The notes beneath the pieces were generated by a model. The model worked only from the letters and a program-made list of their open reading frames with translations, ran no database searches and was not told the DNA's origin. Of a DNA stretch of 38,722 nucleotides, positions 10,135 to 35,809 are shown in pieces. The stretch's first letter is position 1. Each line of letters starts with the position of its first letter. Source of the DNA: Plantactinospora alkalitolerans. GTDB lineage: Bacteria; Actinomycetota; Actinomycetes; Mycobacteriales; Micromonosporaceae. Location of the stretch: positions 1 through 38,722 of the forward strand of contig NZ_JADPUN010000137.1 of NCBI RefSeq assembly GCF_015690345.1, read 5' to 3'. Both the position numbers and the translations under genes were made by a program.

Positions 10135-10974
10135 GTGCTGATGGTTCCGGTACGCCAGCTCGGCGAGGCCGAGCGTGGCGCGGTGGAGCGGATCCTCGAA
10201 CTCGACCCCTTCGCCGCCGCGCAGGTGGCCGAACGGGTCGCCGCGAACGGCCTGTCCTGGTGGCGGGCGGACGGCCGGGTGCTGGGCTACGGCTCCCGGA
10301 ACCACATCGAGTCGCTCTGCTGGCTGGGCGGCCAACTCACCCCCGTCTGTACCAGCCAACCGGCGATCGCGGCCTTCGCCGACGCGCTCGGCGCGGAGGA
10401 ACGGGGCTGCTCGTCGATCGTCGGGCGGGCCGACGGGGTGCTCGGGCTCTGGGAACGGCTCTCCGCCCGGTGGGGCCCGGCGCGGGACGTACGCCCCAAC
10501 CAACCGCTGCTGGCGACCGGCATGGTGCCGGAGGTGAAACCGGACCCGGACGTACATCCGGTCCGGGCCGGCGAGATCGAGCGGCTCTTTCCGGCGGCGG
10601 TGGCGATGTACACCGAGGAGGTGGGCGTCTCGCCGCTGGCCGAGGACGGCGGACGGGCGTACCGGCAGCGGGTCGCCGAGCTGGTCCGGGCCCGCCGGGC
10701 GTACGCCAGGTTCGTCGACGGGAAAGTGATCTTCAAGGCCGAACTGGCGGTCGTCACCCGGCGCACCGCGCAGATCCAGGGAGTCTGGGTCGACCCGGCC
10801 TGGCGCGGCCGGGGCATCGGCGCCGCCGCGATGGCCGCCGTGGTACGCGACGCGCTCGCCCGGGTCGCACCCACGGTCAGCCTCTACGTCAACGACTACA
10901 ACACCCCGGCCCGCCGGGTCTACGAACGGTGCGGCTTCCGCTCCGTCGGCACCTTCGCCACCGTCCTCTTCTGA
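10135..10974 (+). CDS. GNAT-family N-acetyltransferase with N-terminal DUF4081-like domain
   Basis: 279 residues. The C-terminal half (about 140-279) is a GNAT fold with the acetyl-CoA loop QGVWVDPAWRGRGIGAAAMAAV (R/Q-x-x-G-x-G/A) and the closing motif LYVNDYNTPARRVYERCGF. The N-terminal half resembles the DUF4081 domain that accompanies this GNAT in actinobacteria (for example Mycobacterium tuberculosis Rv2867c), usually next to ispG and the site-2 protease gene. The acceptor is unknown. GTG at 10135 is used; an ATG two codons later is equally possible. Those neighbours are not in this window, and the rimP-nusA block to which this region is usually close lies 25 kb away. Confidence 0.9.
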   Translation: MLMVPVRQLGEAERGAVERILELDPFAAAQVAERVAANGLSWWRADGRVLGYGSRNHIESLCWLGGQLTPVCTSQPAIAAFADALGAEERGCSSIVGRADGVLGLWERLSARWGPARDVRPNQPLLATGMVPEVKPDPDVHPVRAGEIERLFPAAVAMYTEEVGVSPLAEDGGRAYRQRVAELVRARRAYARFVDGKVIFKAELAVVTRRTAQIQGVWVDPAWRGRGIGAAAMAAVVRDALARVAPTVSLYVNDYNTPARRVYERCGFRSVGTFATVLF

Positions 10975-10987
10975 ACCTGCTGAGGGT

Positions 10988-11041
10988 GTAAGGAAGGGCC
11001 CCTTCTTATCGCTTTTAGTAGAAGAAGGGTCCCCTCCTAAC
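10988..11041. repeat. AGGAAGGGCCCCTTCTTAT palindromic repeat, copy 1
   Basis: Two imperfect arms (10988-11010 and about 11019-11041), each containing its own inner GGGNCCC palindrome, around a short loop. Between convergent genes it could end transcription from both sides. It is more diverged than copy 2. Dispersed elements with this core are, to my knowledge, common in Micromonospora and Salinispora. Confidence 0.8.
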
Positions 11042-11044
11042 AAC

Positions 11045-12195
<1,151 letters not shown>

Positions 12196-12196
12196 C

Positions 12197-13522
12197 TCAG
12201 GCTGGTTGCGGGGCCGGGGTGCGGTCCCGGGTGGTCGGGGATTCGGAGCTGTCGGTCGGCGGGTCGGCGTCGATCAGCTCGCGCCGACCGGCGTTGTCGT
12301 ACGCGGTGCGGTCCAGGACACCTTCGCGGGCGGCGACGATGGTGGGCACCAGCGCCTGGCCGGCGACGTTGGTCGCGGTCCGGATCATGTCCAGGATCGG
12401 GTCGATCGCGAGCAGCAGGCCGGCGCCGGCCAGCGGCAACCCCAGGGTGCTCAGGGTCAGGGTGAGCATCACCAGCGCGCCGGTCAGCCCGGCGGTCGCG
12501 GCGGAGCCGACCACCGAGACGAAGGCGATCAGCAGGTAGTCCAGCGGGCTGAGGCTCAGCCCGAACACCTGGGCGACGAAGATCGCGGCCAGCGCGGGGT
12601 AGATCGCGGCGCAACCGTCCATCTTGGTGGTCGCACCGAACGGTACGGCGAACGAGGCGTACTCACGCGGGACGCCGAGGCGTTCCACGGACTTCTGGGT
12701 CACCGGCATCGTGCCGACGGACGAGCGGGAGACGAAGGCCAACTCGATGGCGGGCCAGGTGCCGGCGTAGAAGCGCAGTGGGTTGAGCCGGCCGGCGAGG
12801 ATGAGCACCAGCGGGTAGACCACGAGCAGGACGATCGCGCAGCCGACGTACACCGCGGTGGTGAACTTGGCCAGCGGTGCCAGCAGGTCCCATCCGTACG
12901 CCTCGACGGCGTGGCCGATCAGGCCGAGGGTGCCGATCGGGGCGAGCCGGATCAGCCACCACAGCGCCTTCTGGGTGATCGCCAGCAGCGCCTTGTTGAA
13001 GTTGACGAACGGCTCGGCGGCGGCGCCGACCAGCAGCGAGGCGATTCCGGCGACCACGGCCAGGAAGACGATCTGGAGCACGTTGTTCTCGACGAACGCG
13101 CCGACCGGGTTCTCCGGCACGATGCCGGTCAGGAAGTCGGTCCAGGAACCGGTCCGCTCGGGCGCCTTGGCCGTGCCGACGTCGAGGTTGACGCCTCGGC
13201 CCGGGTTGGTCAGCAGGCCGAGCCCGATGCCGACGGCGACCGAGATCAGGGCGGTGACTCCGAACCAGAGCAGGGTCTTGAGCGCGAGCCGGGCGGCGTT
13301 GGCCACGCCGCGCAGGCTGACCACGCTGACCACCAGGGCGGTGAAGACCAGCGGGGGTACCGCGAGCCTGAGGAGTTGGACGAAGAGACCGCCGACGGTG
13401 TCCAGGGTGGTGCCGAGCCAGGAGATGTCGGCGGCCCGGGCCAGGTAACCCAGCGCGACGCCGAGCACGAGCCCGGCCAGAATTTGCACCGAGAATGGGA
13501 TCTTGCGAAGAGCAGAGGGCAT
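12197..13522 (-). CDS. Dicarboxylate/amino acid:cation symporter (DAACS), possible cystine symporter
   Basis: 441-residue secondary transporter of the GltP/DctA/TcyP family (glutamate transporter fold). The first hairpin serine-rich motif is seen as SSVGTMPVT (267-275) and the cation/substrate motif NMDGT is represented by GATTKMDGCA (296-305), with K in place of the usual N. Eight membrane helices plus two re-entrant loops fit the length. Family members carry glutamate, aspartate, C4-dicarboxylates, serine or cystine. The cysteine-containing leader peptide 95 bp upstream argues for cystine or another sulfur amino acid. The ATG at 13522 has no good ribosome binding site, which suits control by the leader. 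The 3' end abuts palindromic repeat copy 2. Confidence 0.9.
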   Translation of the reverse strand: MPSALRKIPFSVQILAGLVLGVALGYLARAADISWLGTTLDTVGGLFVQLLRLAVPPLVFTALVVSVVSLRGVANAARLALKTLLWFGVTALISVAVGIGLGLLTNPGRGVNLDVGTAKAPERTGSWTDFLTGIVPENPVGAFVENNVLQIVFLAVVAGIASLLVGAAAEPFVNFNKALLAITQKALWWLIRLAPIGTLGLIGHAVEAYGWDLLAPLAKFTTAVYVGCAIVLLVVYPLVLILAGRLNPLRFYAGTWPAIELAFVSRSSVGTMPVTQKSVERLGVPREYASFAVPFGATTKMDGCAAIYPALAAIFVAQVFGLSLSPLDYLLIAFVSVVGSAATAGLTGALVMLTLTLSTLGLPLAGAGLLLAIDPILDMIRTATNVAGQALVPTIVAAREGVLDRTAYDNAGRRELIDADPPTDSSESPTTRDRTPAPQPA

Positions 13523-13549
13523 CAGGAATCCAAGGTCTGGGTCCGGCGG

Positions 13550-13577
13550 GCGGATGTCCCGGTGTCAGCGGGTCCGC
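13550..13577 (-). promoter_or_regulatory. Possible attenuator hairpin between leader peptide and symporter
   Basis: In the minus-strand RNA, GCGGA-CCC pairs with GGG-(ACA)-UCCGC around a 9-nt loop. The 5' GCGG can also pair with the CCGC just upstream (CCGCGACCGCGG), so two exclusive folds are possible. There is no U-tract, so translational control or Rho-dependent termination is more likely than an intrinsic terminator. Confidence 0.35.
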
Positions 13578-13617
13578 GGTCGCGGCCGGAGGGTGGTCTG
13601 CGGTCCGGAGGGGCGCG

Positions 13618-13695
13618 TCAGCTCGGACAGCAGCCGCTGGCCTGCAGTCGGAGATCGACATACAGGCGGACAGTCAGGAACCAGACGTTGGTCAT
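13618..13695 (-). CDS. Putative cysteine-responsive leader peptide (25 residues)
   Basis: A short ORF with ATG at 13695-13693 and TGA at 13620-13618. The 25-residue product contains RLYVDLRLQASGCCPS at its end. The pattern R-x-(Y/H)-V-D-L-x-x-x-x-S-x-C matches the short 'putative leader peptides' found upstream of sulfur and cysteine genes in actinobacteria. Polycysteine leaders of mycobacteria act as cysteine-responsive attenuators. Two adjacent Cys codons lie just before the stop, where a starved ribosome would stall. A promoter (TTTCAC-17 bp-TATCGT) puts the RNA start within about 3 nt of the ATG. The DAACS symporter gene starts 95 bp downstream on the same strand. Confidence 0.72.
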   Translation of the reverse strand: MTNVWFLTVRLYVDLRLQASGCCPS

Positions 13696-13704
13696 CGCGG
13701 GATC

Positions 13705-13733
13705 ACGATACGGCGACGGAGAGGTTAGTGAAA
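13705..13733 (-). promoter_or_regulatory. Promoter for the leader peptide and symporter
   Basis: On the minus strand, TTTCAC (13733-13728), a 17-bp spacer and TATCGT (13710-13705). The predicted transcription start is about 3 nt from the leader ATG, giving an essentially leaderless leader-peptide mRNA. Confidence 0.5.
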
Positions 13734-13771
13734 GGACAGGAGTGCGTGAGGCACCTTACAAGCGACCGGCG

Positions 13772-14563
13772 TCACATTTCCGGACCGGTCGGCGGGTCGT
13801 CGGCACGGTCGGGGCGAAGTGGATCACCCGGGCCGCTGGTGGCGGAGGGGCGGAGGAGTCCGAGCGCGATCGCGGTGGCCACTCCCCAGGCGGCCAGGTC
13901 GAGCAGGAGCAGGCGTTCGACCGTACCCGTCAGGAGGCCCCGGCCGACCGCGAGCAGCGCGACCCCGGCGGCCAGCGACAGCGGCACGGCGAACACGGCG
14001 GCGACCGTGGCGAGCCGGCGCAGCGCCGGAGCCGCCCCGGGGGTCAGGGCCACCGCCAGGACGGCGAAGACGGTTCCGGCGACCGCCGCGATGCTCGCGC
14101 CGCCGTGCACCAGGTCCGCGAGGGTGGTCCGGTCGAAGGGGGGCAGCGGGCATCCGCTGCGGCAGCTCACCCCGGCGGACATCACGGTGGCCAGGCCGCT
14201 CGGGACCAGCAGCCCGGCCGCGAGTCGGAGCGCCGGGGGCAGCGCCACGGCGAGCAGCAACAGGCCGGCGGCGATCCCCAACAGACCCAGCCGGTACGTC
14301 CACACGCTCGGGCTGGTCGAGGCGCCGGCCTCGCTGACGTAGCCGGCGAAGCCCGGACTCGGTCCGGCGTCCACGGCGAGGATCACCGCCACCCCGCCCG
14401 CCAGCGTGCAGACCCCGGCGGCGAGCGCGGCCGTGCCACGTCGCGGTTCGGCCGTGCCACGTCGCGGTTCGGCCGCGCCGTCCGGCCACCCGGTCGATCG
14501 GTGCGCCGGTCGGGACGACCGGTCATCGACACCGGTCTCCCGGTTGAACTGGGCCCACGACAT
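13772..14563 (-). CDS. DUF998 family integral membrane protein
   Basis: 263 residues with about six hydrophobic helices after a 50-residue charged N-terminus. The family pattern is visible: GFAGYVSEAG near the first helix, then SAGVSCRSGCPLPPFDRTTLADLVHGGASIAAV around the central loop. The Cys pair in CRSGC and the HGG motif are typical of DUF998. The role is unknown; this family is found in many actinobacterial membranes. ATG at 14563 (MSWAQFNRETGVDD) is preferred to a start 84 codons upstream, which would run into the opposite-strand promoter. The N-terminal tail holds a perfect 21-bp duplication giving EPRRGTA twice. The 3' end is 76 bp from the leader-peptide ATG, on the same strand. Confidence 0.82.
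   Translation of the reverse strand: MSWAQFNRETGVDDRSSRPAHRSTGWPDGAAEPRRGTAEPRRGTAALAAGVCTLAGGVAVILAVDAGPSPGFAGYVSEAGASTSPSVWTYRLGLLGIAAGLLLLAVALPPALRLAAGLLVPSGLATVMSAGVSCRSGCPLPPFDRTTLADLVHGGASIAAVAGTVFAVLAVALTPGAAPALRRLATVAAVFAVPLSLAAGVALLAVGRGLLTGTVERLLLLDLAAWGVATAIALGLLRPSATSGPGDPLRPDRADDPPTGPEM
14430..14471. repeat. Perfect 21-bp tandem duplication inside DUF998 gene
   Basis: Two identical copies (14430-14450 and 14451-14471) encode EPRRGTA twice on the minus strand, in frame, in the cytoplasmic N-terminal tail. Confidence 0.85.
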
Positions 14564-23244: not shown

Positions 23245-24900
23245 ATGAGCGCACCCACCCAGCCGACCGGTACGCCAGCGGCGCCGGCCATCGGTCTCGA
23301 CGAGGAACGCCTGGCCCAGCTCGGCTACCAGCAGGAATTGCGGCGGAAGCTCTCCGGCTTCTCCAACTTCGCCGTCTCGTTCTCGATCATCTCGATCCTG
23401 GCCGGTGCGATCACCTCGTACGGCATCGCGATGACGGCCGGCGGCCCGATGGCGATCACCCTGGGCTGGCTCTTCGTCGGCGGCATGGTCACCCTGGTGG
23501 CGCTCGCGATGGCGGAGATCTGCTCGGTCTACCCCACCGCCGGGGCGCTGTACTGGTGGGCGGCGGCGTTGGCCAAGCGGAACAAGGCCGCCTGGGCGTG
23601 GTTCATCGGCTGGTTCAACTTCCTCGGCGAGGTGGCGGTCACCGCGGCCATCGACTTCGGCGCGGCGATCACCACCTCGGCGTTCCTCAGCCTGACCTTC
23701 GGCCTCGAGGTGACGCCGGAGCGTACCTTCGTGGTCTTCCTCGTGATCATCATCGCGCACGGGCTGCTGAACACCTTCGGGGTCAACCTGGTCCGGGTGC
23801 TCTCCGACGTGAGCGCCTGGTGGCACCTGGTCGGTGTCGCGACGATCGTCGGCGTGCTGGCGCTGGTGCCCGACCAGCACAAGCCGATCTCGGAGGTCTT
23901 CTTCGAGGTCCGCAACGCCACCGGCTTCGACTTCGGCGGGGCGGCCGTCTACGCCGTACTGATCGGGCTGCTGATGGCCCAGTACACCTACACCGGCTAC
24001 GACGCGAGCGCGCACGTCGCCGAGGAGACCCACGACGCCAGCCGCGCCGCACCCCGGGGCATCGTGATGTCGGTGGTGGTCTCGGTGATCGCCGGATTCT
24101 TCCTGCTCTTCGCCATCACCTGGTCGATCGGGGACTACGACGCGCAGCGGCAGACCGTACTCGGACTGCCACCGGCACAGATCTTCATCGACGCGACCGG
24201 CGAGGAGACGGGAATCTTCCTGCTCTTCATCTGCGTGGTGGCGCAGTTCTTCTGCGGAATGGCCTCGGTCACCGCGAACTCCCGGATGACGTACGCCTTC
24301 AGCCGGGACGGTGCGCTGCCCGGTTCGCGGATCTGGCGCCGGGTCAACCCCCGGACCGGTACGCCGACCAACTCGATCTGGCTCTGCGTGGCCTGTTCGA
24401 CCCTGCTGGTGCTGCCGTCGCTGTGGAACACCACCGCGTACCTGGCCGCCACCTCGATCGCGGTGATCGGCCTCTACATCGCGTACGTCGGACCGGTGTT
24501 CCTCCGCCGCCGCAGCCCCGACTTCGTGCCGGGCCCGTGGAACCTGGGCCGGTGGAGTGCGCTGGTCGGCTGGCTGGCGATCGGCTGGGTGGGCGTGATC
24601 TGCGTCCTCTTCGTGCTGCCCACCTCGGGTCCGGTCACGGCGGAGACCTTCAACTACACGATCGTCGCCGTGGTTGTGGTGCTCGGCGCGGCCTGGTTGT
24701 GGTGGGTGCTCAGCGCCCGGCACTGGTTCACCGGCCCTCGGCAGAACATCGCGCCGGACATCCCGAAGAGCATCGCGCCGGACATCCCGGAGAGCATCGC
24801 GCCGGACATCCCGGAGAGCATCCCGGAGACCAGCTCGGGGAGCATCGCCTCGAGCGGCTCGGAGAGCATCCCGGCGAGCGGTTCGGAGGAGGGGCGTTGA
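23245..24900 (+). CDS. APC-family amino acid/polyamine permease
   Basis: 551-residue permease with about twelve membrane helices. It opens LGYQQELRRKLSGFSNFAVSFSIISILAG, the signature of the basic amino acid/polyamine branch (TC 2.A.3), with the loop FSRDGALPGSRIWRRVNPRTGTP. ATG at 23245 has AAGGAG 7 bp upstream. The last ~55 residues are a hydrophilic tail built from SIAPDIPE and SGSESIP-like repeats, not needed for transport in relatives. The gene overlaps or abuts the ligase gene next to it. With a glutamylating ligase and an aldehyde dehydrogenase behind it, it is probably an importer of putrescine or another amine, as PuuP is in E. coli. Confidence 0.9.
   Translation: MSAPTQPTGTPAAPAIGLDEERLAQLGYQQELRRKLSGFSNFAVSFSIISILAGAITSYGIAMTAGGPMAITLGWLFVGGMVTLVALAMAEICSVYPTAGALYWWAAALAKRNKAAWAWFIGWFNFLGEVAVTAAIDFGAAITTSAFLSLTFGLEVTPERTFVVFLVIIIAHGLLNTFGVNLVRVLSDVSAWWHLVGVATIVGVLALVPDQHKPISEVFFEVRNATGFDFGGAAVYAVLIGLLMAQYTYTGYDASAHVAEETHDASRAAPRGIVMSVVVSVIAGFFLLFAITWSIGDYDAQRQTVLGLPPAQIFIDATGEETGIFLLFICVVAQFFCGMASVTANSRMTYAFSRDGALPGSRIWRRVNPRTGTPTNSIWLCVACSTLLVLPSLWNTTAYLAATSIAVIGLYIAYVGPVFLRRRSPDFVPGPWNLGRWSALVGWLAIGWVGVICVLFVLPTSGPVTAETFNYTIVAVVVVLGAAWLWWVLSARHWFTGPRQNIAPDIPKSIAPDIPESIAPDIPESIPETSSGSIASSGSESIPASGSEEGR
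24745..24828 (+). repeat. 24-bp tandem repeat in permease C-terminus
   Basis: Three copies of an AGCATCGCGCCGGACATCCC-type unit (24745-24816) plus a half copy, encoding (S/N)IAPDIP(E/K) three times. In frame; differences between copies are few, so the expansion is recent. Confidence 0.85.
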
Positions 24901-34653: not shown

Positions 34654-34658
34654 AGTGT

Positions 34659-34783
34659 GCCGGATCAGGCCGGTCGGCCGGTTGCCGGATCGGGCCGGTC
34701 GGCGGGTTGCCGGATCGGGCCGGTCGGCGGGTTGCCGGATCGGGCCGGTCGGCCGGTTGCCGGATCAGGCCGGTCGGCCGGGG
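34659..34783. repeat. 25-bp tandem repeat, five units
   Basis: Units of 25 bp, GCCGGATCRGGCCGGTCGGC followed by SGGTT, starting at 34659, 34684, 34709, 34734 and 34759. Copies 1 and 5 share A at base 9 and the middle copies have G; the last unit ends GGGG. The array fills the gap between two minus-strand genes and covers the last six codons of the DUF4439 gene. It is not a multiple of three, so it is non-coding for most of its length. No spacers, so not CRISPR. Confidence 0.95.
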
Positions 34784-35187: not shown

Positions 35188-35294
35188 CAGGCCACCCGTC
35201 CCGTCCGCCCGGCGGCGGTCGTCGTTCGGTAGCCGGTCGTCGTTCGGTAGCCGGTCGTCGTCTGGTAGCCGGTCGTCGTCTGGTAGCCGGTCAT
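35187..35294 (-). CDS. 35-residue TGYQTT-repeat peptide, coupled between two genes
   Basis: ATG at 35294-35292 overlaps the stop of the lipoprotein gene (ATGA), with GGAGG 7 bp upstream. Its TGA overlaps the ATG of the DUF4439 gene (TGATG). The product is M, then TGYQTT twice and TGYRTT twice, then TAAGRTGRVA. The sequence is produced by an 18-bp tandem repeat. It may be a true peptide, or an old start region of the DUF4439 gene stretched by slippage. The strong ribosome site and exact overlaps favour translation. Confidence 0.6.
   Translation of the reverse strand: MTGYQTTTGYQTTTGYRTTTGYRTTTAAGRTGRVA
35218..35289. repeat. 18-bp tandem repeat, four units
   Basis: GTCGTCGTTCGGTAGCCG twice (35218-35253) and GTCGTCGTCTGGTAGCCG twice (35254-35289), encoding the TGYRTT/TGYQTT peptide on the minus strand. 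In frame multiples keep the ORF open. Confidence 0.95.
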
Positions 35295-35809
35295 CGGAGC
35301 ACCTCCAGGTGGCTGGCTCGGGCCGCGGTGATCGACCCGACCAGCGCGGCCCGGTCGGCCGGGGCCTCGGTGCACACCTTCGCGGCGGCATCCCGGCCCT
35401 GCTGCTCGGCCTCCCGTAGCTGCTTCAGGGTCGCGGCGGCGGTGACGGCGCCGGAATCTCCGGCGGACGTCGAGGGCGCGACGGTGGCGGAGGGCAGCGT
35501 CGTCCTGGTGACCCGGGCCAGTTCGGCGGCGTGTGCCCGATGGGCTTCGGCGAGCGGGCGGAGCCGGTCCGCCAGCTCCGGGAACGCCGCGATCGTCGCC
35601 TCGTACCGGGCGGCGAGGTCGAGCGCCCCGCCGATCAGTGGCGCGAGTGGGTCCGGTGCGGGCGGCGGGTCGGGTTCGCCGTCGAAGAGACCGCATCCGG
35701 TCAGCGAGCCGGTGGTGCCGACCAGCGCCACCAGGGCGGCTGCTCGTACCACGTCGCGCCGGGACCGCCCCGCCGTCCCGTACTTCTGGTTCGTGTCTCC
35801 GGTCCGCAC
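35291..35809 (-). CDS. Putative Tat-type lipoprotein (Rv2843-like)
   Basis: 172 residues. The N-terminus has a twin-arginine-like motif (SRRDVV) followed by a hydrophobic stretch RAAALVALVGTTGSLTGC with lipobox LTGC. The mature part has a Pro-rich linker (PDPPPAPDPLAP), then helices rich in Ala (AELADRLRPLAEAHRAHAAELARV) and a second helical part. GTG at 35809 is the first start in frame after the divergent intergenic space. Divergent from rimP with a 187-bp gap and followed by a repeat peptide and DUF4439 gene, the same neighbourhood as Rv2843-Rv2844 in mycobacteria. The function is unknown. Confidence 0.8.
   Translation of the reverse strand: MRTGDTNQKYGTAGRSRRDVVRAAALVALVGTTGSLTGCGLFDGEPDPPPAPDPLAPLIGGALDLAARYEATIAAFPELADRLRPLAEAHRAHAAELARVTRTTLPSATVAPSTSAGDSGAVTAAATLKQLREAEQQGRDAAAKVCTEAPADRAALVGSITAARASHLEVLR

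Follow-up and report, generated by a model that had tools for sequence, protein, structure and literature searches.

A widely conserved cysteine-type leader peptide ahead of a TcyP-like symporter gene in Plantactinospora alkalitolerans

Canestrari et al. reportedly described, in 2020, polycysteine leaderless short ORFs (sORFs) that act as attenuators in mycobacteria. In Mycobacterium smegmatis, Cys-rich leaderless ORFs regulate the genes downstream of them, according to passages of one report (PMC9031893), and cysteine-responsive control in this species is also treated in passages of three further papers (PMC9094748, PMC13091356, PMC13236596), the last of which names the mycobacterial mode translation attenuation. 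Cys-rich leader peptides before cys genes had been noted in 2005 in a text that, in the part concerned, suggested Rho (PMC1262725), and a conserved Cys-rich sORF before cysA2 appears in part of a 2015 paper (PMC4633059). A 2021 list of Streptomyces lividans leaders gives, in the section that holds it, eight leaders, none of them assigned there to cysteine and none placed before a symporter (PMC8079986). Among the matches listed by the literature searches, no title or abstract opening describes such a leader ahead of a DAACS symporter gene, or a UGU codon that is invariant.

The window analysed here, a stretch of 38,722 nt from P. alkalitolerans (contig NZ_JADPUN010000137.1, positions 1 to 38,722), contains on its minus strand a gene for a DAACS symporter of 441 residues with TcyP-like motifs (12197..13522), the only PF00375 match found in the assembly. 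Upstream of it on the same strand lies an ORF (13618..13695) that a check of the sequence gave as 25 codons plus stop encoding MTNVWFLTVRLYVDLRLQASGCCPS, with 95 nt between its stop codon and the symporter ATG (13522). Like the mycobacterial polycysteine leaders, this is a short, putatively leaderless ORF with Cys near its stop, positioned ahead of a sulfur-type gene; those leaders carry a run of Cys, whereas this one has a single conserved Cys and no run, and it differs from them further in its TcyP-like symporter target and in a predicted helix (P1, below) to the ribosome site. Leaders of the form LTKRRAVDLCR[VI]AG-polyCys, with the same core as the window leader and TGT at D+9 (counted from the core Asp), occur in three genomes of the same order (L296, L298, L299), which are probably mycobacterial. 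We consider it probable that the ORF in the window is the sensor of a cysteine-responsive leader controlling a TcyP-like symporter for cystine or a related sulfur amino acid, which would add an importer class to the actinobacterial cysteine leaders.

Distribution of the leader and its relatives

Up to 650 nt upstream were read for 170 orthologous symporters, among them 54 of 101 rows listed with an identity of at least 76% and 16 of 28 rows listed with 61–68%, and for 20 paralogues picked from rows at about 30% identity. A second batch took in 105 of 109 further rows (G389, G570, G643 and G563 were left out), five of which, having no symporter match in a short stretch, were dropped (L165, L167, L169, L185 and L188); one locus bearing a leader with TGT (L110, from G045) stands outside the counts. 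With a peptide model (E < 0.01) trained on these same leaders, which gave the same counts when type A, the window's own type, was left out of the training, a leader was found in 145 of the 170 orthologues, namely all 54 close ones and 91 of the 116 distant ones; 25 orthologues had no leader detectable by this model, and neither did any of the 20 paralogues or of 190 antisense stretches. The 25-codon ORF of an earlier, sequence-only reading of this DNA, which had itself named symporter homologues lacking the ORF as evidence against it, is thus confirmed as something beyond chance.

A pattern scan, which undercounts because it requires a start codon near the core, detected a leader in 133 of the 170 orthologues and in none of the 20 paralogues and 190 antisense stretches. 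By identity, the yield was 54/54 at 76–100%, 64/79 at 55–76%, 12/27 at 45–55%, 2/9 at 40–45% and 1/1 below 40%. The scan also matched 66 of a second set of 80 organism-named loci, a count that rose to 69 when the start-codon requirement was dropped; bearers include Micromonospora, Salinispora, Streptomyces, Embleya, Microbispora, Spongiactinospora and Phytomonospora. The 14 named loci with no scan match belong to Kitasatospora (five), Streptomyces (three, one of them with only 208 nt upstream), Nonomuraea (three), Pseudonocardia (two) and Solirubrobacter (one), and the leader of Nonomuraea gerenzanensis is detected by the peptide model. Judged from sequence, then, the leader is real, widely conserved and of cysteine type, and it stands before a TcyP-like symporter. 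Replicons of the alphaproteobacteria Ensifer and Phyllobacterium (L359, L360) carry symporter relatives with about 60% identity to that of the window, and these have no leader; their presence there possibly reflects transfer between phyla.

The leader core reads R-x-[HY]-[VIL]-D-x8-C. All 80 distinct cores have R(-4), D(0) and C(+9), an invariance that is part finding and part selection by the pattern, which restricted these positions (R/K/S/Q at -4, D/N at 0, Cys anywhere from D+8 to D+13). At D+6, 64 of the 80 have Ser and 11 have Thr, and L(-7) is kept in 78. The ratio pN/pS was 0.28 for codons 2–23 and 0.21 for codons 10–23 of 45 distinct type-A leaders, and 0.56 when 99 distinct cores of all types were compared from D-4 to D+9, which points to selection on the leader peptide.

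The same core, as R-x-[HYA]-[VIL]-D-x8-C with terminal Cys, is common to the window leader and to NF042934, an NCBIfam model of class cis_reg_atten named 'putative leader peptide', yet the window peptide scores far below the curated cut-off of that model (11.4 bits, E 0.2, against 27) and is absent from the 18 matches listed at E ≤ 10 in a search of its own genome. The leaders of three type-B orthologous symporters (G340, G358, G374) exceed the cut-off (30.4, 30.4 and 29.2 bits), and a model of the other symporter leaders, made without type A, detects the window leader at E 1.3e-5 and type A in 54/54. When 42 distinct NF042934-type leaders alone were used to build a model, it found 17/54 close and 88/116 distant leaders and missed that of the window. 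We therefore take the window leader, on these profile comparisons, to be a divergent relative of NF042934 that falls under the curated cut-off. Its assignment in the sequence-only reading to an actinobacterial sulfur leader family with a VDL...S..C pattern is well supported by this conservation and by the related leaders of its own genome.

Matches to NF042934 (E 0.001) were found in 76 of 98 Actinomycetes genomes, in 50 of 61 from the window's family, and in none of 14 controls. The genome of P. alkalitolerans itself has four related leaders, three of them before sulfur-type gene families: one precedes a rhodanese gene and is the only one of the four over the NF042934 cut-off, another precedes a flavin reductase gene, after which an SsuA-like binding protein is encoded (below cut-off), and another a nitrite/sulfite reductase. 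The remaining one lies before a family-3 solute-binding protein, matched under cut-off by lysine/arginine, glutamine and cystine models. A TauE/SafE family protein (PF01925) is encoded on the opposite strand beside the leader of sulfonate-type genes (L073:3-944). Judged by eye, the other NF042934 loci lie mostly before rhodanese-type sulfurtransferases, and the rest before sulfite-reductase-like, binding-protein and cysteine-synthase-like genes. The link to cysteine drawn earlier is well supported by the conservation of the leader, by these four relatives and by the TcyP-type motifs of the symporter.

The TGT codon, its context and the hairpin within the leader

Two adjacent Cys codons lie near the end of the window leader, TGC at codon 22 (13630..13632, minus strand) and TGT at codon 23 (13627..13629, minus strand), the latter nine codons after the Asp codon of the V-D motif (13654..13656, minus strand). 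A conserved Cys pair had been proposed from the single sequence, but D+8 is Cys in only 6 of 39 distinct type-A cores, the TGC codon being kept in close relatives only, whereas D+9 is Cys in all 39; codon conservation, also anticipated there, applies to the second codon and fails for the first. Across six types, all 108 distinct symporter leaders have TGT at D+9, as do all 69 matches among the organism-named loci, 31 of which are core-identical to leaders of the first set. The codon is likewise TGT in 61/61 NF042934-type loci (45 distinct cores); these are the best-scoring loci plus the top four of the 18 listed own-genome matches, the other 14 (E 0.17 and above) being left out, and hence not a random sample, and they were tallied with a pattern widened after inspection of misses, since His/Tyr/Phe before V-D had given only 12.

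Other Cys codons of the same loci provide an internal control. In the symporter leaders, TGC outnumbers TGT by 49 to 2 at D+2 and by 5 to 1 at D+8, the 97 symporter ORFs of these loci contain 180 TGC and no TGT, and the remaining Cys codons of NF042934-type leaders are TGC in 118 cases and TGT in 16. The codon positions neighbouring TGT are variable, and the codon that follows it begins with G in 0/108 distinct leaders. In 110 of 112 distinct leaders the Cys is followed by P, R, C, S or H, compared with 22% in six window proteins; the following residue is never A, G, V, D or E in these 112 (45% in the six window proteins), nor in 43 distinct NF042934-type leaders. The invariance of TGT together with the bias in the following codon therefore suggests that codon identity and context matter, beyond the residue. 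UGU is read by tRNA-Cys through wobble. The single obligatory UGU appears to us the new and most testable point, as it provides a sharp signature: all leaders read have UGU as the candidate sensing codon, in GC-rich genomes that normally use UGC. Should the response differ between UGU and UGC, the leader would be a clear example of a sensor set by which of two synonymous codons is used.

A hairpin, P2, accounts for some of the nucleotide conservation seen in types A and B. Within the window leader it is formed by the codons for R-L-Y-V-D and R-L-Q-A (13639..13668, minus strand), and it is predicted to be stabler than synonymous-codon versions of the same segment. Over 10 codons, mean z relative to such versions is -2.67 in type A (n=39) and -2.38 in type B (n=12); it is weak in type C (-1.09, n=14), and no excess is seen in type D (+0.93, n=26), type E (+1.26, n=8) or the rest (+0.22, n=9). 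Since types D and E retain the peptide core, it is not a by-product of P2. It may then be asked whether the nascent R-x-[HY]-[VIL]-D-x8-C chain itself programmes the arrest, one UGU followed by Pro, Arg or Cys sufficing where mycobacterial leaders use Cys runs. The fixed spacing of D to C, the invariance of R, D and C, the retention of the core without hairpin excess and the restricted following residue all speak for such a composite arrest peptide, but a pure peptide sensor would have no need of TGT and P2 already accounts for some of the conservation, and we hold this reading to be possible though rather doubtful.

Promoter, ribosome site and the output step

A -10 element, TATCGT (13705..13710, minus strand), lies 9 nt before the leader ATG and is preceded by a weak -35-like TTTCAC (13728..13733, minus strand). 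The sequence TTTCAC-17-TATCGT that had been described as a good promoter is indeed present at 13733-13705, but its rating as good was not borne out: a sigma-70 scan of 13400-13850 found no promoter, leaving the -35-like element unmatched, and a strong sigma-70 promoter was accordingly rejected. A -10-like TA...T whose first base is 14–16 nt before the leader ATG is found in all 54 close orthologues (shuffle mean 0.9, maximum 4). This near-fixed spacing makes an RNA start at the leader ATG, or within a few nucleotides of it, likely, and the transcript may be of leaderless type. Ahead of the promoter is a box, TAAGGTGCCTCAC (TAAGG[AT]G..TCAC; 13746..13758, minus strand), which is partly conserved in type A and close relatives, with peaks of information content about 66 to 52 nt before the leader ATG.

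In other lineages a different element, GGAA[TC]-N16-20-GTT, stands upstream of the core at 10/12 type-B and 9/26 type-D loci (for example L155–L160 and L133; shuffle means 0.1 for type B and 0.3 for type D), at a highly variable distance from the core in type D. It was found in 0/39 loci of the window's type, 1/14 of type C, 0/8 of type E and 2/9 of the rest. This element, which we take to resemble the SigR (thiol-stress) promoter consensus, suggests disulfide-stress control of the leader in some lineages.

The statement that the symporter gene has no ribosome site did not hold. TTGGA is present at 13533-13529, and GGA or GGG occurs within 24 nt of the start in 50/54 close orthologues. This weak Shine–Dalgarno sequence forms part of CCAGACCTTGGA (13529..13540, minus strand), the 3' strand of a predicted helix, P1, whose 5' strand is leader nt 4–17, spanning the codons for T-N-V-W (13679..13692, minus strand). 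Measured by energy z-scores against shuffled spacers, in sequences that are related and hence not independent, pairing of leader nt 4–17 with the ribosome-site region has a mean z of -2.36, with 33 of 54 below -2. Four other leader segments show no pairing excess with that region (mean z -0.36 to +0.38), and pairing of the whole leader is weak in the same kind of test (mean z -0.62, 13% of 54 below -2). P1 is not seen in 33 TNxW leaders of other families (z +0.41) and seems confined to Micromonosporaceae-type leaders. An equilibrium fold model over 50 sequences did not free the site when a ribosome was stalled at Cys23 (unpaired 0.31 versus 0.30), covering the first 16 nt raised the value modestly to 0.41, and a queue of three ribosomes raised it to 0.39; release of the ribosome site by one stalled ribosome is therefore unsupported by the model.

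Two competing hairpins had been proposed in the 95 nt before the symporter start. As a conserved element these were rejected, the spacer being variable in length (27 to 172 nt in the 54 close orthologues, with a type-A median of 47 nt) and poorly alignable, and a MAFFT alignment of the 54 leader–spacer stretches misaligned the spacers because of those length differences; what is kept is the hairpin inside the leader and the complementarity between leader start and ribosome site. Attenuation by terminator hairpins, the output suggested at the same time, is not supported either: a scan of 13400-13850 gave a single terminator-like hit, which precedes the leader, and T runs in the typed spacers reach 5 at most. 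No Rfam element was found in the window, and a single match at E 3 (to the ST7-AS2 lncRNA model) in a further search was taken as chance. On these comparisons, masking of the ribosome site or the action of Rho fits better as the output step than terminator hairpins do.

The spacer of the window (13523..13617, minus strand) is C-rich and G-poor (C 0.48, G 0.27), and the same holds for the 145 leader loci (C 0.46, G 0.23) by comparison with the 25 leaderless orthologues (C 0.36, G 0.27) and the 20 paralogues (C 0.31, G 0.29). C minus G is +0.23, +0.08 and +0.01 in these three groups and -0.01 upstream of the leaders. Such a spacer, left naked after normal termination at the leader stop, might allow Rho to end transcription, which a ribosome stalled at UGU would block or prevent by keeping coupling. 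We regard this as a serious possibility, if somewhat short of an even chance. The composition of the spacers beside a balanced upstream flank agrees with it, as does the want of a T-run terminator between leader and gene in the window, and Rho was suggested for mycobacterial cys leaders in part of the 2005 text (PMC1262725); against this, type-A spacers are short, a high C content may serve to hold RNA unfolded to some other end, and the p-values for spacer composition ignore relatedness. In Escherichia coli, according to passages of the reports concerned, stalling in the upstream ORF of the toiL (PMC12121999) and tnaC (PMC3902921) leaders relieves Rho termination or masking of a ribosome site, the role of Rho for tnaC being given in PMC1262725. 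The mechanism proposed here is alike in that an upstream-ORF stall would relieve a downstream block, and unlike in its peptide and signal, the signals being free tryptophan for TnaC and antibiotics for toiL.

Computation supports the conservation of the ORF, its peptide core, its TGT codon and the -10, the two helices, the composition of the spacer and the sulfur-type setting; we infer the stalling, the direction of control, the output step and the substrate, and our working hypothesis is the following. Transcription would probably start at the leader AUG or within a few nucleotides of it and, to judge from the promoter position, the ribosome would load directly on that AUG. When Cys-tRNA is ample, it would pass the single UGU, terminate and leave, and symporter expression would be low; when Cys-tRNA is scarce, it would stall at UGU, aided by the conserved nascent peptide, and the symporter would be expressed. 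The output in this lineage would most likely consist of exposure of a ribosome site otherwise paired with leader nt 4–17, together with shielding of the C-rich spacer from Rho. With type-A spacers being short and the ribosome site weak, re-initiation would also be permitted, so that the leader might do no more than load ribosomes, or let them re-initiate, on a leaderless transcript, with no sensing of cysteine; this leaves the invariant TGT, the peptide core and the sharing of the leader with sulfur-type genes unexplained, and we think it very improbable. A broader extension of the cysteine-sensing hypothesis is offered tentatively, as one that may well prove wrong: that the leaders form an actinobacteria-wide family with one obligatory UGU in the nascent-chain context R-x-[HY]-[VIL]-D-x8-C followed by Pro, Arg or Cys, in which the peptide primes the ribosome and a codon run is replaced by one wobble-decoded codon whose 3' context is weak. 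The regulon of such a family would comprise sulfur enzymes, ABC importers and the TcyP-like symporter, and its output, by Shine–Dalgarno helix or Rho spacer, would have been rewired between lineages.

The symporter, its substrate and neighbouring repeats

The symporter resembles the L-cystine symporter TcyP (YdjN) of E. coli in being a PF00375-type protein and in sharing with it three motifs, SRSS, GCA..YPA and the stretch [DE]P..DM.RT..N, although overall identity to TcyP, at 29%, is no higher than that to GltP (31%; DctA 25%). All three motifs are found in a Paracoccus protein annotated as an L-cystine transporter, and SRSS and GCA..YPA in the stretch read of a homologue from an E. coli plasmid. 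SRSS and GCA..YPA are absent from GltP, DctA and three displayed paralogues; SstT has TRSS, and GltP has the third stretch in part. In a tree, the node that would decide whether TcyP is the nearest relative has a support of only 0.164.

Glutamate, aspartate or dicarboxylates could be the substrate instead, with the leader tying uptake to sulfur status indirectly. The best NCBIfam scores of the window symporter are indeed to the DctA and GltP models (all under cut-off), its best PDB matches bear the names of aspartate or glutamate transporters, and its MxRTxxN motif retains the R and T. E. coli TcyP itself, however, scores best against the GltP model of the same library, and the SRSS and GCA..YPA motifs that the window protein has in common with TcyP are those missing from GltP and DctA, so that we consider this alternative unlikely and cystine, from the motifs, the likeliest substrate. 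If so, the leader would predict substrates for vaguely annotated 'dicarboxylate' symporters.

A palindromic repeat lies over the symporter stop codon (12139..12207, minus strand) and may mark the transcript end. The repeat belongs to a 69-nt palindromic element, AAGGGCCCCTTCTTAT..., of which a second copy, inverted relative to the first, is at 10974-11042, and its core recurs in two other loci of the same genome (L072 and L074); the element looks like a mobile bidirectional terminator. Short-period tandem repeats are also present in the window, at 24719-24886 (12/24 nt), 34658-34782 (25 nt) and 35198-35305 (18 nt).
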